Shown here: positions 5,355 through 25,460 of the stretch, piece after piece
Position numbering within the stretch: the stretch's first letter is position 1
How the letters are laid out: every line of letters begins with the position of its first letter
Origin: a virus
DNA: 46,649 nt
Direction: 5' to 3' (one strand)
Virus record (IMG/VR): IMGVR_UViG_3300003321_000115
Location: 676 to 47,324 of that record
Notes under the pieces: generated by a model
What the model was told of the DNA's origin: nothing
Database searches by the model: none
The model's input: only the letters and a program-made list of their open reading frames with translations
Position numbers and translations under genes: made by a program

Positions 5355-5413
5355 AGCAAGAAGTGTGCCAATAGTTATATACTAGTTAAATAAGATGGTT
5401 CTCAGGGATGAGA
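5355..5413 (-). promoter_or_regulatory. Sigma54 promoter with upstream palindrome (R1)
   Basis: On the minus strand TGGCACACTTCTTGCT (5370-5355) matches the sigma54 -24/-12 consensus with GG and GC 10 bases apart. The expected start is about 5344, giving a 46-base leader to the ATG at 5299. The perfect palindrome TCTCA-GGGA-TGAGA is at 5400-5413, centred about 38 bp upstream of the -24 GG, as at three other promoters in the window. Drives 4913-5299. Confidence 0.85.
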
Positions 5414-5416
5414 TAG

Positions 5417-5620
5417 TCAGTCAAGAACATCTATACTGTTATTAACTATTTCTTCGATTGCTTGGCCAGCACCTTGCACCATCCCATAACAATCTACAAT
5501 CTGTAAATAATTAATACCCACTTGAAAATAAGGACCATCTTCAGTTACTTTATTTTCATATTTTGCAAGTGCTGATTGTAATACTGCTACTGCTTTTACT
5601 ATTTCTGTATTTGTTGGCAT
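5417..5620 (-). CDS. Hypothetical protein, 67 aa
   Basis: Small acidic protein ('MPTNTEIVKAVAVLQSALAKYENKV...'), no family recognised. I chose the ATG at 5620, preceded by an A-rich stretch as for most genes here. An upstream in-frame ATG at 5656 would add 12 residues and overlap the Nudix stop. It is the last gene of the long minus-strand operon from 11928, and its stop lies 4 bases from the palindrome at 5400-5413. Confidence 0.6.
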   Translation of the reverse strand: MPTNTEIVKAVAVLQSALAKYENKVTEDGPYFQVGINYLQIVDCYGMVQGAGQAIEEIVNNSIDVLD

Positions 5621-5639
5621 ATGTTTATTGTTTGTATAG

Positions 5640-6056
5640 TCATAAATTAACATCAAAATATTTACTAAGAGCTTTCTTTGACATTCCAGTTATCATTGTT
5701 CTAATTTCTATTAAATCATCTACAGAATACCAACCAACTAAAGAAAATCCATCACCGGCAATAGGAGAATGAATTGGAGGTATATCTGTAACAATATAAA
5801 ATGGCATTACTGTATGGCCATTTTCTGAAAATCCTTCTTCAATAGAAAACAAATGATGAACATGAATATGCAATCCAGTCTCTTCATTAAACTCTCTAAA
5901 TAAAGCAGCTTCTAATGTTTCCTTGTATTCAACTCTACCGCCGGGAGAGCAATACATATTAGGTAATGCTTCATCATCAGGTAATCGTTTACCTAATAGA
6001 ACTCTACCATCACGAATTAATATACCAGATACACCGACTTTTATTATGTTGTTCAT
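5640..6056 (-). CDS. Nudix hydrolase
   Basis: 138 residues from the ATG at 6056. The Nudix box is complete: G-x5-E-x7-REFxEETGL in 'GGRVEYKETLEAALFREFNEETGL'. The strand before it ('VGVSGILIRDGRVLLGKR') is typical of ADP-ribose/NTP-type Nudix enzymes. Substrate cannot be told from sequence; sanitising dNTPs or cleaving nucleotide-sugar or signal nucleotides are both known for phage Nudix proteins. The start at 6056 follows the stop of the sigma54 activator gene by 2 bases; the longer reading from 6125 would run through that gene's C-terminal codons and is rejected. Confidence 0.85.
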   Translation of the reverse strand: MNNIIKVGVSGILIRDGRVLLGKRLPDDEALPNMYCSPGGRVEYKETLEAALFREFNEETGLHIHVHHLFSIEEGFSENGHTVMPFYIVTDIPPIHSPIAGDGFSLVGWYSVDDLIEIRTMITGMSKKALSKYFDVNL

Positions 6057-6058
6057 TT

Positions 6059-6958
6059 TTATATCTCTCCTAATACTTGAAATCTTCTGACTGCACGTTG
6101 TAATCCTCTTACTCCTAAACCACACATTCCGTAAGAATTTATATAATCTTCTACACTAATGTTTTCTTCTTCACACTCTGATTTATCAAATGTTGCTAGA
6201 TGACTTTGAACCGCATTTAGATAATCATTACCGCCGGGAATTGATTGCACGATTGGAATTATATCTTTATTTCGTGATGCAAATCCAGAAATATTAATCT
6301 CGAATGTAGAAATCCTAGCATACAAATCTTCTCGAAATCTTTCGGCCCGCACCATCTCAGTTAAATTGCGATGTGTTGCAGATACAAATCTACAACGTAT
6401 ATCAACTTCCCTGTTTGCACCAACTGGAAGAATCTTCTTTTCTTGAATTGCTCTAAGAATTTTAGCTTGAAGATGTAATGCCATATCACCAATTTCATCT
6501 AGAAATAGAATACCATCTCCAGCTTGAACACACATTCCTTTATTTTCTGATACAGCACCAGTAAATGCACCTTTAACATGACCGAATAATATACTTTCTA
6601 TTAGATTCTCCGGTATCCCTGCTGAATTAACTGCAACAAATTGGTCACGCTCTCCTATTAAAGCATGTGCAATTAATTCTTTACCACATCCAGTCGGTCC
6701 CACAATTAAAACACAGTCATCTACTTTCGCAATCTTGCGAACGTGGTCTTTCATGACCATCATTTGAGGATTCACTGTGATAAACTTTGAAAGCCAATAC
6801 TCTGTAGAATTCTTTTTGTCCACAAGTTTTCCATCAACTATTTCATATTGAAGATTCCATTTCTCTAGTTGTTTAATAGCCTCATTACCTAGGCCATTAT
6901 CAAGATACGCTTCTATTGTTGCTCTCCAATGTGGAGGTGGTATTATGTGGTTACTCAT
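6059..6958 (-). CDS. Sigma54 activator (bEBP-type AAA+ ATPase) lacking HTH domain
   Basis: 299 residues. Residues 1-60 are an unrecognised N-terminal region. The AAA+ core follows: Walker A GPTGCGKE at 87-94, the sigma54-contacting loop GAFTGA at 130-135, Walker B GILFLDEIGD at 149-158, sensor I SATHRNL near 193-199, arginine-finger region FREDLYARI near 208-216, and sensor II-like GVRGLQRAVRR near 282-292. The protein ends there; the Fis-type HTH of NtrC/PspF-type activators is absent. Known role of the family: hydrolyse ATP to remodel the sigma54-RNA polymerase closed complex. It lies in the operon below the sigma54-type promoter at 11995, so it probably activates its own expression as well as phage promoters at 5355, 12769, 15341, 16689, 17031, 25382 and 25445. 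No RpoN is encoded here, so host sigma54 is presumably used. Confidence 0.93.
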   Translation of the reverse strand: MSNHIIPPPHWRATIEAYLDNGLGNEAIKQLEKWNLQYEIVDGKLVDKKNSTEYWLSKFITVNPQMMVMKDHVRKIAKVDDCVLIVGPTGCGKELIAHALIGERDQFVAVNSAGIPENLIESILFGHVKGAFTGAVSENKGMCVQAGDGILFLDEIGDMALHLQAKILRAIQEKKILPVGANREVDIRCRFVSATHRNLTEMVRAERFREDLYARISTFEINISGFASRNKDIIPIVQSIPGGNDYLNAVQSHLATFDKSECEEENISVEDYINSYGMCGLGVRGLQRAVRRFQVLGEI

Positions 6959-7290
6959 TTATTTAATTCCTCTTTGAGCATTTGCATTATTATATATTTT
7001 TTATGTTCTTTCTTTGCTTCTTCACCATTTGTTTTTTCCCAAACATCACGATACCATAATCTCTTTTCATCTGGATGTAAAGATGGAAGTATAATGTGTG
7101 TTCCGGGAAATAGTGTATTGTTATTGTTTTCTAGGACATACTTCTGATGGAAATCTATAAAGAATACTGTATTAACTTTCTGAAATTCCTCTAGCTCATC
7201 TAAAACTAGTTTAGTTTGATTACGAGAAAGCTGAACATAATCCTGACTACTACCAATAAGAGCATCAATGTAATCCTGTAGAGTTATCAT
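6955..7290 (-). CDS. Hypothetical protein between helicase and sigma54 activator
   Basis: 111 residues, not recognised. The middle has 'NTLFPGTHIILPSLHPDEKRLWYRDVWEKT', the C-terminus is Lys/Glu-rich. It overlaps both neighbours by 4 bases (ATGA), so it is translationally coupled to the helicase gene above and the activator gene below. The position directly ahead of an activator without a DNA-binding domain makes it a candidate adaptor or regulator, but no HTH is visible. Confidence 0.65.
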   Translation of the reverse strand: MITLQDYIDALIGSSQDYVQLSRNQTKLVLDELEEFQKVNTVFFIDFHQKYVLENNNNTLFPGTHIILPSLHPDEKRLWYRDVWEKTNGEEAKKEHKKYIIMQMLKEELNK

Positions 7291-9530
7291 TCTTCACTTT
7301 CCTCTTCCTCTTCTTCATCTTGTATGAATGTGTTACTTGTTTCATTATCTGTATCTTCAGGGTCTCCTTCTTTACGTTCTCCTTTAATTAAAAGTGCTTC
7401 AACTTCTTCCTCTTTCATATCCTTTCTCCCAAGAATAATATCTTCCCATGATTCTTTATTACGAACTGCTTTCGACAGGCAATGAAGTTTTACGGACATT
7501 ACTCTAGCCTGCCTTTCTTCTACAGTTCCAGCATAATATTCTAATTCTTGTTGTGTATCTGACAATGAATTAATACGAGCACATCTACCTAATCCTTGCA
7601 CACTCTCTTGTGCAGACCAAGTTGGAGTGCATTTTAAAAATCTAGGACGAGTAGGAATTAATGGTATATCTTCAACGTAAGCATATCCCGATGGTTTATG
7701 TCTTACTTTTTCTTTCGTCATTTCATCAGTATGATGTAAACTCAAGCCTACACCACCAGCACGAAATGTATAAAAGCAATATAGAGATTCTCCTCTTTGA
7801 TACCTATCAATTTCAGCTTGCCTCTGTTTCTTATTTTGCGGCCCCAATCTCCATGCATCAGGATATTTTGGTAAGTCTGTATCAGCATCTATATCATCCA
7901 AATCTAAATCATCGAATGATAATCCTTCTGCTGCCATTCTTTCCATGAATTGTGGAGAATTAACTATACTTCTTTTTACTTTCTGTTTCTTGGTTAATGT
8001 AGGAGCGCCACCCCAAATTAAAGATATTTTATCACGAGGAATACCATACTCTGTGATTAATAACTCTACACATTTACATATGGTAAGCTTGAATCGAACA
8101 GCACATGCAGCAGCATATCCTTCTTTAACTGCATGATACATATCTTTTGCTAAGTGTCTAACTCTGTCATAATTTGATTCGGCAGCCTTTAAGAATACTT
8201 GAAGTTGTGCAAGAATATTGAAGTTGGCTTGTGCCGCATTCATTGCATCATCACCTTCAATCTTAGCTTTCTCTTCTAAGAATTTCTCCCACGCAAGATG
8301 ATATTCTTCTCTACCTTTATCTGTTTCAAATTGTAGAATTTTAATCTTATTGTATGCCTTAAATTGTGTCTTAACTCCTTTGACTCTGTATATGTAATCA
8401 TTCATATAGTTCATCAAACGAGTCATTGCGCCGGGAGAATAATCTGCTGGCCCAATTTTTAATCTTCCCCAATCACTAGCTATATTACGAGCAAAATCAT
8501 TCCAATGTTCATTCACCATTGGTGCATTACGATTAAGACCAAATGTATACGGAACTCTAGAAGCAACACAGAAACATTTAGCCTCTGAAACACGAACGTA
8601 TGGCGTAGCCGATACGAATACTTGAAAGATATTTTCATCTTCAATATCGTTAAATGATTGTGCAATCTGTGATTGTTGTGAACCCGGATTTTTAAGAGAG
8701 TGTGCCTCATCCCAAATAACAACTAAAGGATGAATGTTTGGACGCCATACCCATTTACAAGACTCCATCCCATCCTCTACAACTATTTCTTCACGAACAA
8801 ATCTCTTTCCAAACTGAGCACGAAGTTGGTCAATGCCTATAACTAGAACGTCATGTTCTGTTATTCCAAAGTATTTTTTAAGAACACGCTGAGTTTGTTC
8901 TACAACAGTTGCTTTTGTTACATAAATAAATGGCCAAGGTGTAAATGATTTACCTTCATTCCATTTTGATTCTACTAAACGAGCTAGATATGCACCAATG
9001 ATAAATGTTTTACCAAGACCAGTTGCCGCGATTAAATAATATGCACGCTTATGGGCTATCTGTTGTGCATTGATAATGGCTAGTGTTGCTTTCTTTTGAA
9101 ACCAATAAAGAAATGATTTATCTCTAGCACATGGCGGTAATTCTACACCATGCATTTCCTCTTCTTCTGTCTTTGGTGGAGGTATCAGTTCTTTGTTAGT
9201 TACTAATTCTAAAGTAACACTTTTTATTTCTTCTTCGGATTCCGGTATTAATAATGGAGGATTATTCCTTAACCATATATATGTCTCCATTTCAATACGT
9301 CTATCCTCTATGAAATCCTTTACTTGTTGAAAATCTAAAGGATGATTTAACCAAGACTCACAAGCACCTTTCGCTGGCGGCCATTCAAAGAAATCTGATA
9401 AATCTCTATATGTTTTTATATGACCAAATGACCAAGCTCCTTTTGTTCTATTAACTATATAATTAAATTGGTCACGTATTTTCTTATCCTCTTTTTGTTG
9501 AGGAGTGAGTTTTAGTCTAGGAGTGGTCAT
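7287..9530 (-). CDS. SF2 (SNF2/DEAH-type) helicase
   Basis: 747 residues. Motif I ATGLGKT at residues 169-175, motif II DEAH at 274-277, motif III SAT at 307-309, and in the second RecA domain 'FYTFRAGGVGLSLH' (motif V-like) and 'ESVQGLGRCAR' (motif VI-like, with the final Arg) near 650-670. The C-terminal 40 residues are highly acidic. Phage SF2 helicases of this size serve in replication or recombination; no separate DnaB-like helicase, primase or DNA polymerase is visible in the window, so it may be the main replicative motor here or work with genes outside. Coupled by ATGA to genes on both sides. Confidence 0.85.
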   Translation of the reverse strand: MTTPRLKLTPQQKEDKKIRDQFNYIVNRTKGAWSFGHIKTYRDLSDFFEWPPAKGACESWLNHPLDFQQVKDFIEDRRIEMETYIWLRNNPPLLIPESEEEIKSVTLELVTNKELIPPPKTEEEEMHGVELPPCARDKSFLYWFQKKATLAIINAQQIAHKRAYYLIAATGLGKTFIIGAYLARLVESKWNEGKSFTPWPFIYVTKATVVEQTQRVLKKYFGITEHDVLVIGIDQLRAQFGKRFVREEIVVEDGMESCKWVWRPNIHPLVVIWDEAHSLKNPGSQQSQIAQSFNDIEDENIFQVFVSATPYVRVSEAKCFCVASRVPYTFGLNRNAPMVNEHWNDFARNIASDWGRLKIGPADYSPGAMTRLMNYMNDYIYRVKGVKTQFKAYNKIKILQFETDKGREEYHLAWEKFLEEKAKIEGDDAMNAAQANFNILAQLQVFLKAAESNYDRVRHLAKDMYHAVKEGYAAACAVRFKLTICKCVELLITEYGIPRDKISLIWGGAPTLTKKQKVKRSIVNSPQFMERMAAEGLSFDDLDLDDIDADTDLPKYPDAWRLGPQNKKQRQAEIDRYQRGESLYCFYTFRAGGVGLSLHHTDEMTKEKVRHKPSGYAYVEDIPLIPTRPRFLKCTPTWSAQESVQGLGRCARINSLSDTQQELEYYAGTVEERQARVMSVKLHCLSKAVRNKESWEDIILGRKDMKEEEVEALLIKGERKEGDPEDTDNETSNTFIQDEEEEEESEE

Positions 9531-9775
9531 ATCCTATTTAAGTTTGCTATTGGTTTGTTATGAACTTCTAAAATTTTTATACGGACAAATCCTTTACCAA
9601 TACGAGAGAAGAATTGCCATTTTAATATATCAGTTTCAGTTATAAGTGGCAATGGTGGAAGAGTCATTTTATTATATGCTTCTTCTCCATATGCTAACTT
9701 GATTGATTCAAATGCATCTTCTATTTTATTGAAGTATGTATTACAAAACGGAGTTGCTACTTCAAATATAATCAT
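9527..9775 (-). CDS. Hypothetical protein, 82 aa
   Basis: Small, mixed alpha/beta composition ('EVATPFCNTYFNKIEDAFESIKLAYGEEAYN'), no recognised family. Overlaps the helicase start by 4 bases and the preceding gene 9772-9978 by 4 bases, so it belongs to the coupled operon. It could be a helicase accessory subunit; this rests on position only. Confidence 0.6.
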   Translation of the reverse strand: MIIFEVATPFCNTYFNKIEDAFESIKLAYGEEAYNKMTLPPLPLITETDILKWQFFSRIGKGFVRIKILEVHNKPIANLNRI

Positions 9776-9978
9776 GGCGGATTGTTTTGATAGATACGAG
9801 TTACTTCAGGTGTCTCAGAATGAATATGGCAACGAATATTTCCTTTTTCGTTTATCTGCATTTCTATTCGTAAAAGAGCTTCCATCAATAAATTATCCCA
9901 ATCTTCTTTTGGAATATCCCATGATGTGAAGAACTCTAATCTAAAGAATGATTTATGTTTTGGATTGATTTCGCACAT
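9772..9978 (-). CDS. Hypothetical protein, 68 aa
   Basis: Small protein with beta-strand-like pattern ('KSFFRLEFFTSWDIPKEDWDNLLMEALLRIEMQI'), not recognised. It ends in an ATGA overlap with 9527-9775 and starts 1 base after the stop of 9980-10381, so expression is tied to the same operon. Confidence 0.6.
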   Translation of the reverse strand: MCEINPKHKSFFRLEFFTSWDIPKEDWDNLLMEALLRIEMQINEKGNIRCHIHSETPEVTRIYQNNPP

Positions 9979-9979
9979 A

Positions 9980-10381
9980 TTATATAGAATTAATCATCTC
10001 AATTTCACAATCTGAACAGAACTTTTCTAGCCAAATATCTTTTTCCTTGAAAGCTTTCCTATATGCTTGTTTAAGCTCTAGGTTTTCTTCTCTCTTATCC
10101 CAAAGCTTATGTGTTTTCTTCCATTCCTCATATTCAGCATTCTGTTTATCAGATATTTCTTGCAAAGCATCACAAGCCTTAGCTGTCAATTCACCAAATT
10201 GATTCAGCCATTTGATTTGAGTATCATTCAAATCTAGTTGACCCGGATTTAATCCCAAAGATACAAATATGTGGCCAGTCTTCTTTGTCTTTATAGTGCA
10301 GACAACATGATTCATGATTCGCCCGCGCTTCACATATTGAGATGGTTTATACGATATGTCAAACAGGTCTAGGTAGTTCAT
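9980..10381 (-). CDS. Hypothetical protein, 133 aa
   Basis: No family recognised. The N-terminal half has strands ('HVVCTIKTKKTGHIFVSLGLNPGQLDL'); the C-terminal half is a Lys/Glu-rich, probably coiled helix ending 'FCSDCEIEMINSI', with a CSDC pair that might bind metal. It overlaps 10359-10577 by 23 bases if the ATG at 10381 is used; an internal ATG at 10315 would avoid the overlap but lose 22 residues. Confidence 0.6.
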   Translation of the reverse strand: MNYLDLFDISYKPSQYVKRGRIMNHVVCTIKTKKTGHIFVSLGLNPGQLDLNDTQIKWLNQFGELTAKACDALQEISDKQNAEYEEWKKTHKLWDKREENLELKQAYRKAFKEKDIWLEKFCSDCEIEMINSI

Positions 10382-10577
10382 TTTTATTTGCCTTTCTCAC
10401 TTGAATTAAAGCTTGATTAAAGTATTCTCTGCCATAATAATCTTCGTCATCTTTAATTAGAAAAAATACTCCAGCTTTAGTTACATCTAATAGTTCTTCT
10501 TCTGATGCGCTAAATAAAAAATCATCATACGAATGAGAGAAATAGTAAGTGCTATGTCCAAATTGTTCAGAGCGCAT
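10359..10577 (-). CDS. Hypothetical protein, 72 aa
   Basis: Acidic and aromatic small protein ('STYYFSHSYDDFLFSASEEELLD', 'IKDDEDYYGREYF'); no recognised domain. Such charged, aromatic small phage proteins often target host factors or mimic DNA, but nothing here shows that. Starts 1 base after the stop of 10579-10800. Confidence 0.55.
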   Translation of the reverse strand: MRSEQFGHSTYYFSHSYDDFLFSASEEELLDVTKAGVFFLIKDDEDYYGREYFNQALIQVRKANKNELPRPV

Positions 10578-10578
10578 A

Positions 10579-10800
10579 TTAACAACAACATCTTTCAGGC
10601 AATTCCATAAACCAAGCTACAAAGTATTTGCCACGTTGCACTGGATTATCTCTTATGGAAATTTTAACTTCTTTAGGATGAACAAAAACATCTACTCCAC
10701 CCATATCTCCACTTTCATATGTAACAATTTTCTTTTCTTCTTTAGCATGTTTTCTAATGAGTTGCATTTTGCAAAAATTACACATTGTATTGTCGCTCAT
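10579..10800 (-). CDS. Small Cys-rich hypothetical protein
   Basis: 73 residues with an N-terminal CNFC pair (residues 7-10) and a C-terminal run of three Cys. Two Cys pairs could form a zinc site, but spacing is unlike any family I know. Its start overlaps the stop of the 41-residue gene 10797-10922 (ATATGA). Confidence 0.6.
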   Translation of the reverse strand: MSDNTMCNFCKMQLIRKHAKEEKKIVTYESGDMGGVDVFVHPKEVKISIRDNPVQRGKYFVAWFMELPERCCC

Positions 10801-10922
10801 ATCTGTTCTATTCTTTCTACTTCCTCCCCTAAAGTTATTTCGTAAACTGACTCTCTTTCATAATCTTCATTGTCAACTAAAGCTATCTCTGTTGTAGAGT
10901 TAATCAGTTTAATCACCTTCAT
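10797..10922 (-). CDS. Hypothetical 41-aa protein
   Basis: ATG at 10922 to TGA at 10797. Starts MKVIKLINSTTEIALVDNED and is strongly acidic at the end (EEVERIEQI). It fills the otherwise empty 118 bases between two genes and overlaps both by 4 bases, ATGA at each end, like the rest of this operon. That perfect fit is the main evidence that it is real. No function recognised. Confidence 0.65.
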   Translation of the reverse strand: MKVIKLINSTTEIALVDNEDYERESVYEITLGEEVERIEQI

Positions 10923-11371
10923 ATGTCGCCGAGGTCTAACTTCGATTTAATACCTAATTTTTCTACATTCTGTTGCTTCTTCTGTCGTGCAAGTTTGGCG
11001 GCAATACCTCTTAATAATTCGGGGTCATCAATTCCATATTGCTTTGCTAAAGAACGCATTAATAATGAGGTATTCTCTGACAATAGATTTGCCTCTTTTC
11101 TTCTCCGTTCTGATGCTGCTTTATCTAATTGATGTTTATGATAACAGGTTTTCCATTCTTTTATTTTCCAAAGATATGGATGCTGTAATTTTTCACCTGT
11201 TTCTAGAGATTCAAATTGAACATGACAGAATTGTTCATTCTTATCAAGAGCTTGAAATATGACAGCATCCTCATAATCTATTGCTTGTTTATCTTTATAT
11301 GAAACAATCCAAGCAATAACTTTTGATAATGGACCTGTGTATTTTAATGTTTCTTCATTTTGTTTGCTCAT
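10919..11371 (-). CDS. Hypothetical protein, 150 aa
   Basis: The N-terminal half has strand-like segments; the C-terminal half is a basic helix-rich region ('AASERRRKEANLLSENTSLLMRSLAKQYGIDDPELLRGIAAKLARQKKQQ'). No catalytic motif and no family recognised. The basic C-terminal helices would suit nucleic-acid binding. Coupled to 10797-10922 by ATGA. Confidence 0.6.
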   Translation of the reverse strand: MSKQNEETLKYTGPLSKVIAWIVSYKDKQAIDYEDAVIFQALDKNEQFCHVQFESLETGEKLQHPYLWKIKEWKTCYHKHQLDKAASERRRKEANLLSENTSLLMRSLAKQYGIDDPELLRGIAAKLARQKKQQNVEKLGIKSKLDLGDI

Positions 11372-11375
11372 GCCA

Positions 11376-11633: not shown

Positions 11634-11649
11634 AAGAATAAAGATTTAA

Positions 11650-11928: not shown

Positions 11929-11963
11929 AAAAGTATTCTATTGTATAACCAATCTGTTGTCAA

Positions 11964-11982: not shown

Positions 11983-11994
11983 CAAAATAAAGGA

Positions 11995-12052
11995 AGCAAG
12001 AATCGTGCCAACTTGTATGTTATACTTCTGTTATACTATCTCAAGCTTGAGA
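11995..12052 (-). promoter_or_regulatory. Sigma54 promoter with upstream palindrome (R4)
   Basis: Minus-strand TGGCACGATTCTTGCT (12010-11995) is essentially a perfect sigma54 -24/-12 element. The palindrome TCTCA-AGCT-TGAGA at 12039-12052 is centred about 37 bp upstream of the -24 GG and is preceded by TTATACTA, as at 25.4 kb. The predicted start is near 11984. Drives the 11928 to 5417 operon that includes the sigma54 activator and helicase. Confidence 0.88.
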
Positions 12053-12139: not shown

Positions 12140-12679
12140 TTAAGCAGTAGCAGCTTCTTCCTTAGGAGTTCGCTTCTTAGCTGCAATAGCAACTTGTTTC
12201 TTCTTGATTTCAACAGCAAATTCCTTGAAGTCCTGTGCAAATGTAGGAGATTCAGGGTCAAGAGCAGTCATCTGATTAGTCAATTCCTCAATTTCACCAC
12301 GCAACTGTGGAATAGAATCACCCCTATCAGAGAAGTCTGCTGCAAGAGTCTTGAATACTTCATACATCTTATCAGTATCAACTTTTCCTGTAGCTTCATC
12401 TGTAGCTTGCTCTTCTGCTTCACCCATCCAACCTTGACAGAGAGTTCTAACAAATGCTCCGAGACGATTTGCTGTAATCTTACGATTAATCCAAGCAATA
12501 ACTGTGTCAAGATTTTCCTCAGTAACTTTCGGGGCAAGATAAGGAGTTCCTTTTTCTTTTCCCTTCATTACTTCAGTATCAACGAAGTCCAAAGAAACAT
12601 CGTTTCGAGGAATACTGATTGTCTGCAACTTAACACGAGGTGTATTATTTGCCGGAGTAGTTTGCGTTTCTGTTGACAT
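12140..12679 (-). CDS. Hypothetical protein in its own sigma54 transcription unit
   Basis: 179 residues, mostly helical: 'TPYLAPKVTEENLDTVIAWINRKITANRLGAFVRTLCQGWM', then an acidic helical part and a Lys-rich C-terminus 'IKKKQVAIAAKKRTPKEE'. No family recognised. Codon use is richer in G/C than its neighbours. It has its own sigma54-type promoter (12769) and its own terminator (12062-12105), the layout of a highly expressed single gene. A structural, DNA-coating or host-takeover protein would fit; none is shown. Confidence 0.8.
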   Translation of the reverse strand: MSTETQTTPANNTPRVKLQTISIPRNDVSLDFVDTEVMKGKEKGTPYLAPKVTEENLDTVIAWINRKITANRLGAFVRTLCQGWMGEAEEQATDEATGKVDTDKMYEVFKTLAADFSDRGDSIPQLRGEIEELTNQMTALDPESPTFAQDFKEFAVEIKKKQVAIAAKKRTPKEEAATA

Positions 12680-12768: not shown

Positions 12769-12828
12769 AGCAGGAAGTATGCCAGCTATTAAGAGATTGT
12801 TTAAGTGTTATACTTCTCAAGGATGAGA
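12769..12828 (-). promoter_or_regulatory. Sigma54 promoter with upstream palindrome (R2)
   Basis: Minus-strand TGGCATACTTCCTGCT (12784-12769) keeps the GG and GC of the sigma54 consensus at the right spacing. TCTCA-AGGA-TGAGA at 12815-12828 is centred about 39 bp upstream of the GG. The palindrome sits at the very 3' end of gene 12817-13161. Predicted start near 12758, about 79-base leader. Drives 12140-12679. Confidence 0.83.
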
Positions 12829-14803: not shown

Positions 14804-15193
14804 TCATCTTGGACCTCCTTCTTCTAATTCTTTTGGTTTTAAATCTTCTTTTGTGATTGGTGTTGGATTTGGATATTCTGGTTCTTCTGCTATTAATTTC
14901 TGCACCATTGCCTCTTTTGCAAATTCTGTAACATCAACCATAAAATTAATTCTGCTGGATTCTCTTTCATCTAAAATATGAATACTGTATAAATCTGTTG
15001 TTTTCCATGGAATAGCATTCATACCATCTTTGAATAGAGATTCTATTGAAAAGAGAATACCATTACATCTTTCAAAATTAATTGGTTTGTTTGAGTCCTC
15101 TTTAAGAAATATACCAATCGCCATTCTATACAAGGAATTACGTTTATGCTTGAATTCAACAAGTGTAATGAAGTATTTGTGGTATGTTGTCAT
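14804..15193 (-). CDS. Hypothetical protein, 129 aa
   Basis: Strand-rich N-terminal two thirds ('YHKYFITLVEFKHKRNSLYRMAIGIFL', 'GILFSIESLFKDGMNAIPWKTTDLYSIHILDE') with a Pro/Glu-rich tail. No family recognised. First gene of the coupled cluster of small genes (15193 down to 12817), about 140 bases downstream of the predicted start at the 15341 promoter. Confidence 0.65.
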   Translation of the reverse strand: MTTYHKYFITLVEFKHKRNSLYRMAIGIFLKEDSNKPINFERCNGILFSIESLFKDGMNAIPWKTTDLYSIHILDERESSRINFMVDVTEFAKEAMVQKLIAEEPEYPNPTPITKEDLKPKELEEGGPR

Positions 15194-15340: not shown

Positions 15341-15422
15341 AGCATAATCCATGCCAATTATTTACTAGTATTGTTTAATGAACTATATAAAGATTGAGAA
15401 TATTGAGTTCTCACAAATGAGA
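15341..15422 (-). promoter_or_regulatory. Sigma54 promoter with distant palindrome (R5)
   Basis: Minus-strand TGGCATGGATTATGCT (15356-15341) keeps GG and GC at the right spacing but has ATGC in place of TTGC. The palindrome TCTCA-CAAA-TGAGA is at 15409-15422, about 61 bp from the GG instead of 37-39. An extra TTGAGA half-site (15394-15399) lies near the usual distance. Drives 14804-15193 and the small genes after it. Confidence 0.7.
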
Positions 15423-16129: not shown

Positions 16130-16525
16130 TTAGCGGGTAACATCGGCAATAGCTTGCATCAATGTTTCATTGCATTCGAGTTGATTCGGCTCGAATCCGA
16201 AGGATGATGCTTCATTGGCGAATTGAATTGCCCTAAGAATGAAGATAGCATTCGTCAAAGGAACACCCTTCATCTTGGCTGCTTCGGACAATGTAACCTT
16301 AGCATCCTTGTTAACCTTGCCAATCTTCACCTTGACTGGAGAGCTGGCCATAGCCGCACCCCAATCACGACCAATAGCTTTAGCTATCTTCACCGCTTCA
16401 TCTTGAGTAACGTGCAATACTCGCATAGAATCCTTAAAGGACTCTTTCATCAAGGATGAATATCGCCCATCACCAAAAGTCGTGGTTACGTCGATTGGCT
16501 TGATTTCTAACGCATTAGTTGACAT
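16130..16525 (-). CDS. Hypothetical protein in its own sigma54 transcription unit
   Basis: 131 residues, soluble, alpha/beta: 'VLHVTQDEAVKIAKAIGRDWGAAMASSPVKVKIGKVNKDAKVTLSEAAKMKGVPLTNAIFILRAIQF'. No family recognised. More G/C-rich codon use than its neighbours, own promoter (16689) and own terminator (16091-16126), like 12140-12679. First gene on the minus arm from the divergent switch region, so probably expressed strongly. Confidence 0.75.
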   Translation of the reverse strand: MSTNALEIKPIDVTTTFGDGRYSSLMKESFKDSMRVLHVTQDEAVKIAKAIGRDWGAAMASSPVKVKIGKVNKDAKVTLSEAAKMKGVPLTNAIFILRAIQFANEASSFGFEPNQLECNETLMQAIADVTR

Positions 16526-16688
16526 ATATGACTCCTACTACAAACCATGTAGGGCTGCTGTCATTTTGACAGTGGACTTCCCACACAGTAAATCCTGTTT
16601 ATGTCAACGAGTCACCGTTCTACAATGCATGTTACTGCATCGCACTAGGCGACTTGCACACCGCTATTTCAAAGAACACCACACTATA

Positions 16689-16704
16689 AGCTAATCGTGT
16701 GCCA
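16689..16704 (-). promoter_or_regulatory. Sigma54 promoter (R6), palindrome degenerate
   Basis: Minus-strand TGGCACACGATTAGCT (16704-16689): perfect -24 half, -12 half TAGC with GC in place. Predicted start near 16677, leaving about 150 bases before the ATG at 16525. Upstream there is only a degenerate CTC-A5-GAG (16766-16777) instead of the full TCTCA-N4-TGAGA. Confidence 0.68.
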
Positions 16705-17030: not shown

Positions 17031-17046
17031 TGGCATCTTTCTTGCT
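17031..17046 (+). promoter_or_regulatory. Sigma54 late promoter for the packaging/head operon
   Basis: TGGCATCTTTCTTGCT on the plus strand, with GG and GC at sigma54 spacing. Predicted start about 17057, just 13 bases ahead of the ATG at 17070 and before the terminase genes. No full TCTCA-N4-TGAGA palindrome upstream; only a lone TCTCA at 17005-17009. Confidence 0.8.
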
Positions 17047-17069
17047 TTCTCATGTATGAGAATCACGTT

Positions 17070-17249
17070 ATGTCAAAATTGCTAAATAATGTAGCAGAAA
17101 AGAACGGGACTCGTTTACTGACGGATAAAAGTCCCAAGATGGTTATTAGCGGAGATGACATACTCATGATTGAGAAACTTAAAATTGAATATCGCGCAAT
17201 CTATGAATCACCAACGAATAGCAAAACTGCTAAGAATCGGAATCAGTAA
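17070..17249 (+). CDS. Small hypothetical protein at start of late operon
   Basis: 59 residues from the ATG at 17070 (MSKLLNNVAEKNGTRLLTDK...). An in-frame ATG at 17052 lies upstream of the predicted sigma54 start (about 17057), so it would not be on that transcript; I therefore prefer 17070. Basic, soluble, no family recognised. Its end overlaps the next reading frame by 47 bases. Confidence 0.55.
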   Translation: MSKLLNNVAEKNGTRLLTDKSPKMVISGDDILMIEKLKIEYRAIYESPTNSKTAKNRNQ

Positions 17250-17399: not shown

Positions 17400-17825
17400 A
17401 TGACGAACGGGAATGCACAAATAGTTGAGGCTTACGAAACACTTCAACTAAGTCCCGGCGAAATAGCCGAACAGTTCGATTATGAAGAATCTGCTGTTAT
17501 AGCTGTTTTAGCACAATATTCGTCTACCTACAGGAAAGCAGTTGGCACCGCGAAAGAAACTGGATTCACTGATGAACAAGAACAGGCTATCTGTGATGTA
17601 ATTTCCAACATAGCTAGAGGCTACACTGATGCAGACATTCCTACTCAATTAAGAGCGGCCATATATGTAAGGAATGATAAAAGAGGTCGTCTTGATACTA
17701 TCAAACAAATGAACTCTCTTAATATCAATATGGTCAATTTCAATGTAGATTTGAAGAAAGCTCTTAATGCAATTCAAAAATCTAAAGAGAAGGCTGCTCA
17801 AGTAACTGAAGTTGCTTCTGTTTAA
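17400..17825 (+). CDS. Candidate small terminase subunit
   Basis: 141 residues directly upstream of the large terminase. Residues about 17-40 ('LSPGEIAEQFDYEESAVIAVLAQ') read like a helix-turn-helix, followed by a helical middle and a Lys-rich C-terminal helix, the usual order in TerS proteins (DNA-binding, oligomerisation, TerL-contacting). No sequence family recognised; assignment is from size, position and layout. Followed by a pyrimidine-rich run and the E4 hairpin. Confidence 0.6.
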   Translation: MTNGNAQIVEAYETLQLSPGEIAEQFDYEESAVIAVLAQYSSTYRKAVGTAKETGFTDEQEQAICDVISNIARGYTDADIPTQLRAAIYVRNDKRGRLDTIKQMNSLNINMVNFNVDLKKALNAIQKSKEKAAQVTEVASV

Positions 17826-19627: not shown

Positions 19628-19787
19628 TAAAGAAAAATCGGATATAGAATTTAATATGGGTAATGCTATACATTATCTACACACTCTTGATTCATATCAT
19701 GTTAAGGATGTGATAGTATACAAAGAAATTCAAAAGACAGCAACTATTGTTTTAGAGGCAGTTAACAAATTACTTGGAGAAAATTAA
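19620..19787 (+). CDS. Hypothetical 55-aa protein
   Basis: ATG at 19620 overlaps the terminase stop by 8 bases; TAA at 19787 is 2 bases before the next ATG. 'MSDKEKSDIEFNMGNAIHYL...TIVLEAVNKLLGEN', acidic helical. The tight fit between two genes is the main support. Possibly a packaging accessory. Confidence 0.65.
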   Translation: MSDKEKSDIEFNMGNAIHYLHTLDSYHVKDVIVYKEIQKTATIVLEAVNKLLGEN

Positions 19788-19789
19788 AT

Positions 19790-20056
19790 ATGTATGATGA
19801 CCCCTCGCCTGTTAGTGGCTCTGTTATGGAATACGGAATTCTAGATGGTATTCCAACTAAACTTGCTGAATGTTGTGAAGAATGTCATGATGAATTGACA
19901 ATGCAACAGTTGAGGCAAATGAGGGATTACTTTCAAAATAAATTAGATTCATTTCAACGTAATGTTGAAAAGGATTTAACAATAGAAGATTTTGAGAAAG
20001 CAAGAAAGAGAGATGAAGATAATGACCAAGAAGTGGGGGAAGAGAAAATATATTAA
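19790..20056 (+). CDS. Hypothetical protein, 88 aa
   Basis: 'LAECCEECHDELTMQQLRQMRDYFQNKLDSFQRNVEKDL' has a CC..C..H cluster near residues 29-34, perhaps a metal site, then a coiled-coil-like helix and an acidic tail. Lies 3 bases before the portal gene. No family recognised. Confidence 0.65.
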   Translation: MYDDPSPVSGSVMEYGILDGIPTKLAECCEECHDELTMQQLRQMRDYFQNKLDSFQRNVEKDLTIEDFEKARKRDEDNDQEVGEEKIY

Positions 20057-20059
20057 TAT

Positions 20060-22147
20060 ATGCACCGTATTCTTTTAATAAACGATATGTATATGGGTAA
20101 TGGAGAAGCTGGTAACTCCATTACTACAAATGCTGGTCTTATTCCTCCTGTTGGTTTATCTGAAGTTCCTGAACAACAGCAACAACCGGGAGCAGATACA
20201 GAACAAGATAAGATGTTTGATTTCTCTCAGGCGAGAATACATCTTATGCGTATCGTAGATGATTGGAATACGGAAGTGGAAGATACGGAAGTTCGTAGAA
20301 AAACTCGTGATGTAGAATTAGATGTTGAAGGATTGCGTCAAAAAGGAGATTTAGACGAAGATGAAACTATTGTGCCAGTTAGAACAATAGACACAAACAT
20401 TCAACGTGAAATTCCTGCATATGTCAACTACCTAACTAATTCGCGGCGACTTTGCACCTTTCGTTGTTTATCAACTCCCGGCAAAGATGGTCAAAATATT
20501 GAGAAAGAGTTTACAGAAGGAATGACATATACTGCTTGGAATGTTCCGCATTTCAAAGAAGTAGATGGTGCTGAAACTCATGGTTGGGCTTCTGTCGAAG
20601 TTGTTTTTGATTCTTCAAAACCTCTTAATGTCGGACTTGAGTATATAGCTCACGATAAACTATTCTTTCCTAGAACAGTTGAGAATTTTCAAGATGCGCC
20701 GCGAGTTATTCGTGCATACGATGTTACCATTCTTAAATTAAAAGAGTGGGTGCGAACATTTGGATTTGACGAAGAGCAAGTTGATTTGTTGATTCAAACT
20801 AGACAGGATAATATCAAGGAAAATGAAACTGTTCGTATTTATAAATGCTACTTCAAAAAAGAAGGAGTTGTTTATGTTTCTTGGTTTTCTTTGACTGAGG
20901 GAGTTTCTAATTGGCTTAAGAAACCAATTAAACATTTCATTGGAATTCGCACTAAACAACAAGTTCCTACACAAGTTCCACAACCTGATTTACCTGTTTC
21001 TACTGAGCAAGGAATTGCAATGATTCCTCAACCTCCTAAAACTGTTATGCAAGAACAGTGGGTTGATGAAGATGTTAAGCAATATCCAATATTTAAATTA
21101 GATTACAAGGAATCAGAAAAGCCTAAAGAAGTTGACCATAAAGGAAGAGTCTTTTATGATGAACCTAAACAAGAAGCACAAACTGCTATTCAGTCTGGAT
21201 TTATTAATGGTTTAACTCGTGCTAGCAATGTTTATGCTTCTCCTTCACAAGAAGATGGTTCTGGTTCTTCTCTTAAAGAATTAGAGGATGTTAAATTGTC
21301 TGGTGGTAGAATTCTTTCTAGGCCAATGACATTTTGGTCGCCGCCATACCCTGATGCTTTGATTATCAGAACTTTACAGTATATGGATACTGCAAATTCT
21401 GAGGAAACTAATCAAGTTAACTTTGCGTCTATGAATAGGGAAGATAGCCGCAAAACAGCCAAAGAAATAAGTGCTGCACAACAGCAGCAACAGATATTGA
21501 ATAGTGTTCAGTTGGCAATGTATTCAACACACATTCGTGAAGTATATTCTTTCTGTTGGCTTATTGTTCAATCTCAGGCATTACAAGGTAATATTAGATT
21601 CTTGCTTATTCCAAATCCTCAGTATGTTCAAGCGTTGCAGCAAATGCAGCAGACTGGAGTTCCTCCAGAACAGATGTTGCCTCAATTAACTAGAATTCCC
21701 AAATTTATTAATGATGATGACACAATATCTGAAACTTGGGAAGTTCGTGCTGCTGGAGATATTGATGTAGTTCAAAGGCAAGAAAAGATACAAATGATGA
21801 TGCAGATGTGGCCTTTGGTTCAAGGAACTCCTTTGGCGGCACAATTCTTGGCAGACCTTATTAAAATAATGTTTCCTGATGTTGGTGATAGATATGCACA
21901 AGTTATCATGCAACAAGATATGGTAAACAATATGAAAGGTTTGCTTGGTGGATTAGCACATATTGTTGATGCAGTGATACAGCAGCATCCAGAAGTAATG
22001 AATAGTATTAATCCACAAGAGAAACAACAATTAATGTCAATGTTACAACAAGCTGGTTCATTATCTGGAACACCGCCGCCAAATAAAGTTGGTGGTGGCC
22101 AACAGCAAATGAAACAGGCAAATGTTCAATCAATTAATCCTTCATAA
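20060..22147 (+). CDS. Portal protein
   Basis: 695 residues, right size and place (between TerL and scaffold/capsid) for a podovirus portal. Central region: 'TIDTNIQREIPAYVNYLTNSRRLCTFRC' and 'VEVVFDSSKPLNVGLEYIAHDKLFFPRT', then a long helical, Gln/Met-rich C-terminus ('QQMQQTGVPPEQMLPQL', 'GGGQQQMKQ') expected for the barrel. The dodecameric portal is the DNA gate and tail attachment point. An internal ATG (Met 10 or 12) is an alternative start. Confidence 0.82.
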   Translation: MHRILLINDMYMGNGEAGNSITTNAGLIPPVGLSEVPEQQQQPGADTEQDKMFDFSQARIHLMRIVDDWNTEVEDTEVRRKTRDVELDVEGLRQKGDLDEDETIVPVRTIDTNIQREIPAYVNYLTNSRRLCTFRCLSTPGKDGQNIEKEFTEGMTYTAWNVPHFKEVDGAETHGWASVEVVFDSSKPLNVGLEYIAHDKLFFPRTVENFQDAPRVIRAYDVTILKLKEWVRTFGFDEEQVDLLIQTRQDNIKENETVRIYKCYFKKEGVVYVSWFSLTEGVSNWLKKPIKHFIGIRTKQQVPTQVPQPDLPVSTEQGIAMIPQPPKTVMQEQWVDEDVKQYPIFKLDYKESEKPKEVDHKGRVFYDEPKQEAQTAIQSGFINGLTRASNVYASPSQEDGSGSSLKELEDVKLSGGRILSRPMTFWSPPYPDALIIRTLQYMDTANSEETNQVNFASMNREDSRKTAKEISAAQQQQQILNSVQLAMYSTHIREVYSFCWLIVQSQALQGNIRFLLIPNPQYVQALQQMQQTGVPPEQMLPQLTRIPKFINDDDTISETWEVRAAGDIDVVQRQEKIQMMMQMWPLVQGTPLAAQFLADLIKIMFPDVGDRYAQVIMQQDMVNNMKGLLGGLAHIVDAVIQQHPEVMNSINPQEKQQLMSMLQQAGSLSGTPPPNKVGGGQQQMKQANVQSINPS

Positions 22148-22154
22148 ACACGCT

Positions 22155-22559
22155 ATGGCTAAAACAGCAGAAATATATACTGGAGCAACTTCATTAACAG
22201 ATGTAGAAAGAGCTAGAATAAGAGAGAAGATGGGGCTTCCTCCAAGAAAACAAACTGTTGCAGAATCAAAAGATAATGGAACAGCAGGTAATCCTAAACC
22301 TGCTGAGATTCCAACAGATGCTTCTACAATGTCTCAATTTGTGGCAGAGAAATTTAATTGGATGGAATCTCCTGTGACTGGAGAATTAATTAAAGATTTA
22401 ACTGAACAAATTGCTAGTGCTGAAGAAGAAGCTCGTAAGATGGCAATGACATTTTCTGTTCATCAAGATATTTTTAGAATTGTTCGTCTCCTAAATAAAT
22501 CAACTGAACTCCGTAACATACTGAATAAATATGGCCGAAATAAACCCAGCACGCATTAA
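22155..22559 (+). CDS. Hypothetical head-module protein
   Basis: 134 residues from the ATG at 22155, 7 bases after the portal stop; the frame is open further upstream inside the portal gene but that is not used. Starts MAKTAEIYTGATSLTDVERA; Pro-rich middle and helical C-terminus 'EEEARKMAMTFSVHQDIFRIVRLLNKSTELRN'. It overlaps the scaffold gene start by 29 bases. Likely a minor head or scaffold-associated protein. Confidence 0.65.
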   Translation: MAKTAEIYTGATSLTDVERARIREKMGLPPRKQTVAESKDNGTAGNPKPAEIPTDASTMSQFVAEKFNWMESPVTGELIKDLTEQIASAEEEARKMAMTFSVHQDIFRIVRLLNKSTELRNILNKYGRNKPSTH

Positions 22560-23892
22560 TCAACCTCGTATTGATACAGGTGCAGAGGTAACACAAGATG
22601 GTGTTCCCATTAGTCAACAAGCTGCTCCTACTTCACAACAGAGGCAGGCACCAGTTAATAATACTCCTCCTGTTGAAGTAGTAGAACAGCAACAGCAGGC
22701 TAACGAAAATCAGACACAGCAGCAACAGAACCAAGAACAAACCACCACTACAGAGAATACTCCTACACAAGATAATACTAATAATCAAGAGCAGACTAAT
22801 AATGAAACTGCTCCTGATAATCTTGTTGATTTCTCTAATTTCTTAGAGGTTAAAGATGCAGGTATCCCAACTGAGAAACCTAAGACGCCAGTTGAACAGA
22901 AAGAAACAACAAAGGTTGATGAATCTCAGACGCAACAGAGAACACCGTCTAAAGAAACTCAAACACAGCAGCAGCAAAGAACTCAACCACAAGCAAGAGA
23001 TTATTCCGATTTAGATGCTGATATTGCTCCATTGTTTAAAAACATGAGCAATGATGCATTTAATAAGATTAAACCTATTGTTATAGAGCACAAACGAATT
23101 AAAACAGAGCTGGCCGCTAAAGATGCAGAAATAGTAGAATTAAAGAAAGGTGGCTTACCTCCTTCTTATCATGATAATCCTAATGGATTTGTTTTAGACC
23201 CTGCTTATCTTGCTGCTGATTCTCAAGTTGCTACTGCTGAAACTATTCTTAATCACTGGGAAAGACAAGCTGAAGCAATTCGTCAAGGTGCAGCTGAAAT
23301 AGATGTATTGGGCACAAATGAACAAGGTCAGCTTGTTATAAAAGGAAAAGCAAAAGCTGATAAAAATGTAGAAGGACAAGTTGGTCAGATTATTGCTGGC
23401 GCTCGTAATCAACTAGTAAAGGTTGCAGCAACGGCTGAAACACTTAAGACAAACTTTGCTACACGTTATCAGGCGGCACAACGCTGGCTTTCTGATTATG
23501 AAGGAAGAGCTTATCAGGTGTTTAATACAGAACAAGGTAAGCAATTTATTCCTCAAGTAGAAGCTATTCTTAAAGAGTTTCCTGTTGAATATCGTAATCA
23601 TCCTCTTGCTAGAATGGCAGCTAAGGGATTAATGACTAATAATCATTTGGCAACATTACTCATTCAAATGCAGCAAAAGATGGGTAATGGAAATGGTGTT
23701 GTTCAACAACAGCAAACTCAAACTGCTGTTAATAAGAATGGTAAACAAACTGCACAAGAACAACAACGTCGTGCTGGTCCAACTACTGCTGATACTGGTG
23801 CAGCTTCATCTTCTGGAAAAGGTTCTGGTAAAGGTGGAAATGATGAAGTTACTTTTGATGCATTTAATCGTGCTAAGGAAGGAGTTGATTAA
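22531..23892 (+). CDS. Probable scaffolding protein
   Basis: 453 residues. Residues 1-170 are Gln/Asn/Thr-rich and disordered, 170-380 helical ('KRIKTELAAKDAEIVELKK', 'ERQAEAIRQGAAE'), and the tail is Gly/Ser/Lys-rich. This composition, in the place just before the major capsid gene, fits an internal scaffold expelled from the prohead. No sequence family recognised. The stop overlaps the start of the exonuclease gene (TAATG). Confidence 0.72.
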   Translation: MAEINPARINQPRIDTGAEVTQDGVPISQQAAPTSQQRQAPVNNTPPVEVVEQQQQANENQTQQQQNQEQTTTTENTPTQDNTNNQEQTNNETAPDNLVDFSNFLEVKDAGIPTEKPKTPVEQKETTKVDESQTQQRTPSKETQTQQQQRTQPQARDYSDLDADIAPLFKNMSNDAFNKIKPIVIEHKRIKTELAAKDAEIVELKKGGLPPSYHDNPNGFVLDPAYLAADSQVATAETILNHWERQAEAIRQGAAEIDVLGTNEQGQLVIKGKAKADKNVEGQVGQIIAGARNQLVKVAATAETLKTNFATRYQAAQRWLSDYEGRAYQVFNTEQGKQFIPQVEAILKEFPVEYRNHPLARMAAKGLMTNNHLATLLIQMQQKMGNGNGVVQQQQTQTAVNKNGKQTAQEQQRRAGPTTADTGAASSSGKGSGKGGNDEVTFDAFNRAKEGVD

Positions 23893-24497
23893 TGAGATTC
23901 CTTGTAACAGACTTTGAAACATCAGACCTTCCTGATTTTAATGGTCATCCCGGAATGTCTAAAGCTAGAATTGTGCAATTTGCTTGCATACTTCTATCTG
24001 AAGAATTTAATGAGATAGGACTCTTCTCAAGCTTGATAAAACTTGAAGATGGAGTTGCAATTTCACCGGGAGCACAAAATTCACATGGTATTTCTTTAGA
24101 GGAATGTCATGAATATGGAATACCTATATCTAGTGCTTTAGATATATTTGATTCATTTGCATCACAAGCAGATATTGTAGTTGCTCATAACATGAGATTT
24201 GAATCATTTTTACTTGCAACTGAATGTGTTCGTTCAGGTAGAGAAATGTATAATCTTGCAAATGGTAATGGTCAGGCTATTTGCACTATGTTAGCTTCTA
24301 CTTCTGTTTGTGGATTAACTCAAAAAGGAAGTAATCGACCTAAATGGCCTCGTCTTGAAGAGGCATATGAGATACTTGTTGGTGAAAAATTAGAAGGTGC
24401 TCATGATGCTTTAATTGACTGTCGTGCTTGTGGTAAGGTATTGAGGAAGTTAATCGATGGAGGACATATTAAGCTTCCTGAATTAGTAAATAGATAA
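23892..24497 (+). CDS. DnaQ-like 3'-5' exonuclease
   Basis: 201 residues. Exo I 'LVTDFETSDLP' supplies D-x-E; Exo II 'VVAHNMRFESFLL' has the HN..F of the family but E where DnaQ enzymes carry D; Exo III 'GAHDALIDCRA' gives H-x4-D, the DEDDh arrangement. Such enzymes degrade ssDNA/RNA ends or proofread. It is odd to find it inside the head module between scaffold and capsid, and it is the last gene before a terminator and the homing-endonuclease insert. It is one of very few genes here with a Shine-Dalgarno-like AAGGAG upstream. Confidence 0.82.
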   Translation: MRFLVTDFETSDLPDFNGHPGMSKARIVQFACILLSEEFNEIGLFSSLIKLEDGVAISPGAQNSHGISLEECHEYGIPISSALDIFDSFASQADIVVAHNMRFESFLLATECVRSGREMYNLANGNGQAICTMLASTSVCGLTQKGSNRPKWPRLEEAYEILVGEKLEGAHDALIDCRACGKVLRKLIDGGHIKLPELVNR

Positions 24498-24520
24498 GTC
24501 ATTAGCACATTTCCACAGCG

Positions 24521-24563
24521 GGAGCCATATTTCATTTAGGAGATATGGCTCCTTTTTATTTTT
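24521..24563. terminator. Intrinsic terminator between convergent genes
   Basis: GGAGCCATAT (24521-24530) pairs perfectly with ATATGGCTCC (24543-24552), followed by TTTTTATTTTT on the plus strand. It ends plus-strand transcription after the exonuclease gene. For minus-strand transcripts of 24562 the same stem lacks a strong U-run. Confidence 0.9.
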
Positions 24564-24876
24564 ATATAATATTGCCATCAGAGTCTTTTATCTTGAACTC
24601 GCCATCTTCATCTTGGAATACATAAAATCCATTTTTAGGTTTTCCATATAATTCTGGAAATTCTCCAAATTCAAAATTTTTTGGCATTTCTAAGTATTCT
24701 TTAATTCTTTTTAAGACTTCTTTTTCTATTTCTTTCATTCTATCTATAGTTAAATTCATTCCAGTATTTAACTCTGCTTCAGGCCCATGAAAGACACAGG
24801 CTGCAACATTATATGCAAATGCAGCTTCATCAGCTGTATCGTATTCTCCTACAAAAAATTCATCTTTATTATTCAT
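24562..24876 (-). CDS. AP2-domain-containing protein, partial homing-endonuclease module
   Basis: 104 residues. The N-terminal part 'FFVGEYDTADEAAFAYNVAACVFHGPEAELN' is the second half of an AP2 DNA-binding domain (the 'FDTAEEAAxAYDxAA...hG..A.LN' pattern). The first half and the HNH part are missing, so it may be a degraded or split piece of a homing endonuclease. The C-terminus is acidic and helical. Follows 24884-25357 on the same transcript, 7 bases apart. Confidence 0.6.
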   Translation of the reverse strand: MNNKDEFFVGEYDTADEAAFAYNVAACVFHGPEAELNTGMNLTIDRMKEIEKEVLKRIKEYLEMPKNFEFGEFPELYGKPKNGFYVFQDEDGEFKIKDSDGNII

Positions 24877-24883
24877 TTTATTT

Positions 24884-25357
24884 TTAATCTTGTGGTGGTA
24901 TAATATTTAAAACGGCAAATTCTCCAAATCTCTTTTTTACATAATTATTATATGCTATAGCTGCCTCTATTTCTGTTTTAAAGCTTCCCAGAAATTGATG
25001 GCAGGCTTCAGCTTTCCATGGAGAGTTTGGCCTGTCTTTTCTGTAATACACTCCTTTAAATTTTGATGTGGCATTTTTATTATATTTATGCTTATTCATT
25101 CCGTTTTGGGGAAATGTAGCAGGTCTAAAGTTATTTCTACAGTTATTCCATATATTTCCGTCTATATGGTCCTGATACATTTTTCCAGTTACTATCTGTC
25201 CGGGAGTAATATTTTTTCCTATTATATCTGTTCTAGTGATTCTATTTCTTTGCTCGTTGTATGTAAATTTATATGGAGTAAATTTTTCTCTATCTTCTAT
25301 ATTGATAACAAAATATCTATTAGCATTTGGAACATATACAAAAAATAGATTATTCAT
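24884..25357 (-). CDS. HNH/AP2 homing endonuclease
   Basis: 157 residues. HNH: 'DHIDGNIWNNCRNNFRPAT' (D-H-x-D-G-N...N-N-x-x-x-N-x-R) near residues 64-82. AP2: 'SKFKGVYYRKDR...WKAEACHQFLGSFKTEIEAAIAYNNYVKKRFG' near 98-145. Free-standing homing endonucleases of this kind cut related phages and spread themselves. It sits in reverse orientation between head genes and has its own sigma54-type promoter (25382) sharing a palindrome with the capsid promoter. Confidence 0.85.
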   Translation of the reverse strand: MNNLFFVYVPNANRYFVINIEDREKFTPYKFTYNEQRNRITRTDIIGKNITPGQIVTGKMYQDHIDGNIWNNCRNNFRPATFPQNGMNKHKYNKNATSKFKGVYYRKDRPNSPWKAEACHQFLGSFKTEIEAAIAYNNYVKKRFGEFAVLNIIPPQD

Positions 25358-25381
25358 TTTTAATTATTTTCTATATTTGAA

Positions 25382-25397
25382 AGCAAGTTCTATGCCA
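25382..25397 (-). promoter_or_regulatory. Sigma54 promoter for the homing endonuclease (R3 minus)
   Basis: Minus-strand TGGCATAGAACTTGCT (25397-25382), GG and GC correctly spaced. Predicted start near 25371, 14 bases before the ATG at 25357. The palindrome at 25426-25439 is centred about 37 bp upstream of the GG, the same spacing as R1, R2 and R4. Confidence 0.85.
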
Positions 25398-25425
25398 ATC
25401 CAACCATAGATTAGTTTATATACTA

Positions 25426-25439
25426 TCTCATTATTGAGA
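25426..25439. promoter_or_regulatory. Shared palindrome TCTCA-TTAT-TGAGA between divergent promoters
   Basis: Perfect dyad of the type found upstream of R1, R2, R4 and R5. It lies 28 bases from the minus-strand promoter element and only 5 bases from the plus-strand -24 element. Presumed binding site of the regulator that recruits or controls the sigma54 activator. Confidence 0.75.
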
Positions 25440-25444
25440 ATTAT

Positions 25445-25460
25445 TGGCATAAAACTTGCT
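25445..25460 (+). promoter_or_regulatory. Sigma54 promoter for the major capsid gene (R3 plus)
   Basis: TGGCATAAAACTTGCT with correct GG-GC spacing. Predicted start near 25471, about 130 bases before the capsid ATG. The adjoining palindrome is so close (5 bases) that its bound factor could block this promoter rather than activate it, unless the activator reaches it from the other side. Confidence 0.83.

Follow-up and report, generated by a model that had tools for sequence, protein, structure and literature searches.

Does a phage read most of its genome by diverting the sigma54 polymerase of its host? The question is raised by a stretch of 46,649 nucleotides (the window, bases 676-47324 of a 47,324-base IMG/VR virus record), for which it had been predicted from the letters alone that a gene for a sigma54 activator is accompanied by eight -24/-12 elements of the sigma54 type, each correctly oriented before a gene start. 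Our search for TGGCAY-N7-GCT returned eight matches at exactly the coordinates of the original prediction, against a mean of 0.53 and a largest count of 5 in 100 dinucleotide shuffles. Only the sigma54 spacing of 7 is enriched, all other spacings from 2 to 13 giving 0-1 matches each, and 299 permuted cores gave a mean of 0.19 matches with a maximum of 3. Moreover, a generic sigma54 matrix, which we wrote from the textbook consensus independently of the eight sites, placed these same sites at the top eight scores in the window, with every next-best match shown lying inside a gene. The sites meet the TGGCAY / TGCW consensus with GG-N10-GC spacing. All eight lie wholly outside genes in a window that is 89% coding, which under random placement has a chance of about 2e-8, and all eight stand 6-164 bp upstream of the start of a same-strand gene, as had been claimed. 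The prediction would have failed had equal matches been just as frequent inside genes or in shuffled sequence, and the matrix and the shuffles find that they are not. About 94% of the window is downstream of an element in the same orientation.

On the minus strand, the putative promoter TGGCACACTTCTTGCT (5355-5370) precedes the recombination/replication operon 5299-206, TGGCACGATTCTTGCT (11995-12010) the operon 11928-6059 with the helicase and the activator, TGGCATACTTCCTGCT (12769-12784) the gene at 12140-12679, TGGCATGGATTATGCT (15341-15356) the gene at 14804-15193 and those following it, and TGGCACACGATTAGCT (16689-16704) the gene at 16130-16525, each identified by motif and matrix. This last gene has a long leader (16525-16689), which contains a TTCTTTGAAATNGCGG-like sequence in common with the relative G061 near 37357 and is maybe a structured leader or a small RNA. 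On the plus strand, TGGCATCTTTCTTGCT (17031-17046) heads the packaging operon (gene 17400, terminase 17963, portal-like gene 20060), and TGGCATAAAACTTGCT (25445-25460) the capsid and tail operon 25601-45013. While the element at 17031 stands as predicted, the gene start placed at 17052 probably does not: 17052 precedes the transcription start expected for this promoter, so we favour the ATG at 17070. The remaining site, TGGCATAGAACTTGCT (25382-25397, minus strand), lies before genes 25357-24562 and diverges from the capsid promoter, of which it is nearly a mirror copy. The first gene that it faces (24884-25357, minus strand) is one of two AP2/HNH-like, homing-type genes, resembling the AP2 domain only by eye; the other (34236-34760, plus strand) matches the AP2 domain.

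Are these elements a peculiarity of one genome? Querying IMG/VR with the activator gave 62 loci. Thirteen of the fetched records form one clade with the window, having in common with it several of the terminase, portal-like protein, capsid, tail genes and helicase, at roughly 22-56% identity, while seven others have only an activator-like gene in common with it. Near-complete clade records contain 3-10 strong sigma54 elements each, whereas the seven non-clade records contain none beyond chance (4 elements, the background level). A motif scan of relatives had been proposed as a check on the original prediction; in 28 clade genomes (1.22 Mb) it yields 129 elements, against 1-9 for five permuted motifs and 4-20 for eight wrong spacings. 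With coding sequence taken as reading frames of 90 aa or more (87% of these genomes), 105 of the 129 elements are intergenic, and 100 of these 105 face the next gene. A Cpn10 GroES-like co-chaperonin gene (4323-4616, minus strand, E=5e-6) is found only in the window's subclade among the genomes compared.

We also chose genomes without regard to promoter or activator, by searching IMG/VR with a profile of the major capsid protein (25601-26890, plus strand, 429 aa; named from gene order and size), which serves as the clade marker. In the 330 bp that precede the capsid match, 28 of the 43 loci contain a sigma54 element, compared with 109 of 1890 control windows (5.8%); the 15 loci without one, which count against the model, are all more distant members, some of them short fragments. 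An activator is encoded by every one of the 19 virus records that have the capsid and measure at least 28 kb, and by one of 23 kb; the only capsid-positive records without it are shorter fragments of 24 kb or less. Among orthologues of the promoter-proximal genes, 38 of 50 have an element in the 320 bp upstream, against 6 of 302 for other genes. By gene, the element recurs 102-186 bp upstream of capsid orthologues in 19/22, and upstream of orthologues of gene 4913-5299 in 5/5, of gene 12140-12679 in 6/6 and of gene 17400-17825 in 4/7; it is directly upstream of the activator gene itself in 0/25. The promoter at 11995 has counterparts in G056 (at 44804) and G058 (at 4527), and that at 15341 is kept in G058. 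At the level of sequence, our analysis confirms that sigma54-type promoters are placed before capsid, packaging and replication operons across a divergent clade of environmental phages, and it is in this clade that the elements and the activator are observed to occur together.

What could open such promoters? Sigma54 polymerase needs ATP-driven promoter opening, and the original prediction had assigned this role to a protein with GAFTGA, Walker A/B and arginine-finger motifs, an identification with which Pfam, the invariant residues and the predicted fold all agree. The gene (6059-6958, minus strand), inside the helicase operon 11928-6059, is an uninterrupted reading frame for a 299-aa AAA+ core of a sigma54 activator (bEBP), which matches Pfam Sigma54_activat (PF00158) with E=1.8e-54 and the family PHROG 7998 with E=6e-35. 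The motifs GPTGCGKE (Walker A), GAFTGA (residues 130-135) and FLDEIGDM (Walker B) are intact, and the arginines R209 and R215 and the sensor-II residue R284 are present. Across 17 phage homologues these catalytic residues are invariant or nearly so, the loop reading GSFTGA, GSYTGA or GTFTGA in relatives. An AlphaFold2 model (pLDDT 88.8) has as its closest folds the AAA+ domains of FlrC, FleQ and NtrC1. The AAA+ features expected of a bEBP (both Walker motifs, the arginine fingers and sensor II) are present, and so is the sigma54-contact loop. We found no C-terminal HTH in the protein of the window or its relatives, which stops just past sensor II, and no recognisable receiver domain. A C-terminal HTH is present in most bEBP groups and absent in group 5; because groups without an HTH are known, its absence does not remove the protein from the bEBPs. 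Nevertheless, an activator without a DNA-binding domain is unusual for this family and its specificity for phage promoters is unexplained, which counts against our model. In several relatives the activator gene lies directly before the next sigma54 promoter; in the window a NUDIX hydrolase gene (5640-6125, minus strand), missing from the relatives compared, lies between the activator and promoter 5355.

Whose sigma54 would be used? The sigma54 DNA-binding domain of RpoN (PF04552) has no match in 21 clade records, while 4 of 14 control genomes were positive. Since no phage gene for RpoN was found, the factor would be that of the host, the only candidate; this is an inference, as the host is unidentified. 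The window's terminase, 27-31% identical to those of Akkermansia phages, points weakly to phages of Verrucomicrobiota, but searches of genomes with the capsid do not confirm this: the capsid profile has no match in 388 genomes of the Akkermansia phylum or in 4 genomes with a related terminase. We therefore assign no host. These searches found one phage contig only, G086:C112 (L242), of 49.9 kb, with the capsid, a 253-aa activator and at least four sigma54 elements; it comes from a MAG labelled Deltaproteobacteria and is a weak host lead.

The original prediction extended the diversion of host sigma54 polymerase to most of the genome, both early and late. The window statistics and the conservation across the clade bear out the extent, but the timing needs qualifying: the first activator must be made without itself, which leaves at least one operon to be started in some other way. 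The activator operon is preceded by a sigma70-like site, TTGACA-N17-TAGAAT (11963-11935, minus strand), which is the only match of at least 11/12 in the whole 47-kb record and lies 47 nt downstream of the first base of the operon's sigma54 site. That it gives the operon an early start is plausible, though merely suggestive, since it is a single consensus match and is not conserved in relatives. Sigma70-like sites are fewer than in shuffles (40 versus 59.5, sd 8.4), which speaks for the model.

The description of the eight elements had overlooked a second signal. The dyad TCTCA-N4-TGAGA occurs six times in the window against 0.06 expected, every copy beside a sigma54 site, and adjoins seven of the eight promoters, the exception being that at 16689. 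Measuring from the dyad centre to the T of TGG, with this T taken as -26, we find that promoters 5355, 11995, 12769 and 25382 have the centre at -35.5 to -37.5 (about -62.5). Thus the copy at 5400-5413 is centred 36.5 bp upstream of the T (about -62.5), and those at 12039-12052 and 12815-12828 lie at about -61.5 and -63.5 of their promoters. Promoter 15341 has a copy at 15409-15422 (about -85.5) and a weaker one at about -62.5. The copy at 25426-25439 is common to the divergent pair, at about -61.5 of 25382 and, with an offset of -12.5 from the T, about -38.5 of the capsid promoter 25445, while the copy at 17048-17061 (+23.5 from the T) lies over the expected start, about +1, of the packaging promoter 17031. 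Two relatives whose capsids are about 84% identical, G056 and G058, show these offsets again: both have -12.5 at the capsid promoter and -37.5 at the promoter of gene 12140, and -36.5, with 1-2 mismatches, is seen at the promoters that precede the helicase operon and follow the activator. G059 and G060 have no TCTCA dyad and have TTATACT...AGTATAA palindromes instead.

Such fixed, subclade-specific placement suggests a bound regulator. Could this be the activator, using the dyad as an enhancer (UAS) of its own to which its first 50 residues bind? The fixed spacing of about -62.5 in three related genomes would suit this, as would an N-terminal region modelled as two helices and a hairpin and conserved among G000, G056 and G058. 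However, G059 and G060 have a similar N-terminus with a different palindrome and no dyad, and the copy over the packaging start site, which suits timing by repression, fits a repressor better. We consider this an unlikely reading, if one still worth keeping in mind; the dyads are probably operators of a separate, subclade-specific regulator. One gene considered as the dyad-binding partner, at 6955-7290, is found only in the three TCTCA-dyad genomes among those compared, and its single-sequence model (pLDDT 39.8) is too poor to judge.

The capsid leader has a feature of its own. In most relatives it contains one or two hairpins of the form stem-AAGGGCAT-stem, often after GCTTCTA (for example G036:40370 and 40424, G002:31923 and 31953). 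The stem forms in each of the 19 copies from mapped capsid leaders, and the 33 paired copies comprise 8 distinct stem sequences, which amounts to compensatory change. The window's leader (25461-25545) contains two diverged hairpins, GGCAAT-CTGGGC-ATTGCC at 25481-25498 and GTTC-TTCGGGCTG-GAAC at 25526-25542. The hairpin has no Rfam match in five relatives' loci, the window itself has no tRNA or Rfam match, and we regard the hairpin as a candidate new RNA element in the capsid mRNA.

How might these parts work together? In our model the minimal AAA+ activator of the phage would form the usual ring and open promoters held closed by host sigma54 RNA polymerase, the eight -24/-12 elements being the promoters so opened. 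Initial transcription of the activator operon would come from a different promoter, for which the sigma70-like site 11963-11935 is a candidate; the activator would then turn on its own operon, in positive feedback, and with it the recombination operon, the packaging genes and the capsid/tail operon. Because it has no recognisable DNA-binding domain, the activator would probably act from solution or through a recruiting partner, while the separate regulator bound at the dyads may help at -62 and block or time transcription at -38 and +1. We have no expression data, and the transcription starts at the elements, their opening by the activator, the dependence on RpoN, the early promoter and the role of the dyad are inferred. 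Even so, we are largely confident that the phage activator works with host sigma54 polymerase at the eight promoters, with its own operon started elsewhere and the dyads left to a separate regulator. We are more tentative, placing it somewhat short of an even chance, about the wider proposal that the whole lineage runs its middle/late programme through host sigma54 with a diffusible activator, stripped of both accessory domains and lacking an enhancer of its own, while a separate dyad regulator sets the timing, in effect a split version of an enhancer system.

That the elements arose by chance or from the composition of an AT-rich genome we regard as refuted, and give almost no weight: the shuffles, permuted cores and other spacings contradict it, as does orthologous placement across genomes of 34-56% G+C, and no point in its support held up. 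Scarcely more credible to us is that the conserved 16-base element is the site of another phage protein, a processing, packaging or recombination signal. No experiment excludes this, and downstream of some elements there are long leaders in which RNA hairpins are conserved; yet it would leave an exact sigma54 consensus, with its spacing, upstream and oriented, in phages that contain a sigma54 activator. The elements might also be true sigma54 promoters opened by activators of the host, with the phage protein mainly redirecting host sigma54 genes, an arrangement that would link the phage to nutrient or stress conditions. Hosts that possess sigma54 commonly have bEBPs of their own, and the phage activator has no domain with which to aim at phage promoters. 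Against this, every near-complete member of the clade contains the activator, and in several relatives its gene adjoins a conserved sigma54 promoter, and we consider it improbable. We thus retain the phage activator acting with host sigma54 polymerase.

How does this compare with known systems? The AAA+ core with Walker A/B, GAFTGA, arginine fingers and sensor II is as in NtrC1, FlrC, FleQ, PspF and ZraR, but in the phage activator both the receiver/regulatory domain and the C-terminal HTH are missing; unlike bacterial bEBPs, it is encoded by a phage and belongs to the core genes of a phage clade. An HTH is also absent from group 5 bEBPs such as FlgR and CtcC, and FleT is named as the only known bEBP without both regulatory domain and HTH (PMC7175178). 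FlgR and CtcC thus resemble the phage activator and presumably also act from solution; however, they keep a response-regulator domain, which the phage activators do not have. PHROG 7998, of unknown function, has no annotated promoter link, in contrast to the activator here. Mu C, T4 MotA/AsiA and lambda Q are phage activators that turn host polymerase to late promoters, and there are phage sigma factors such as SPO1 gp28. In all of these an early phage protein passes host RNA polymerase on to later operons, as here, but by way of a sigma70-type holoenzyme or a supplied sigma, whereas here sigma54 would be taken.

The Akkermansia phages offer terminase likeness only, with no capsid match and none among the activator matches listed (40 of 64 records, plus counts by name). 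The activator matches in the phage collection mostly look like bacterial contigs filed as phage, and the record MT121960 has no sigma54 elements. None of 50,697 phage records matches the capsid of the window, the window's terminase as a single query has no match in IMG/VR, and we found no cultured relative of the clade. Nor did we find a precedent for a phage sigma54 regulon in the open-access full text searched, which leaves out subscription papers and preprints. As far as we have checked, the parts are of known kinds, while their use as the backbone of a phage programme, with an activator of the smallest type, is new.

More generally, the known takeovers of transcription by phages rely on a new polymerase, a new sigma or a factor altering the sigma70 polymerase. 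A clade that seizes the ATP-dependent sigma54 polymerase would represent a further route of takeover, and would link phage success to RpoN-bearing hosts. The clade also offers a naturally occurring set of very small sigma54 activators together with many compact promoters, which lets one ask how activators without DNA-binding domains find their targets.
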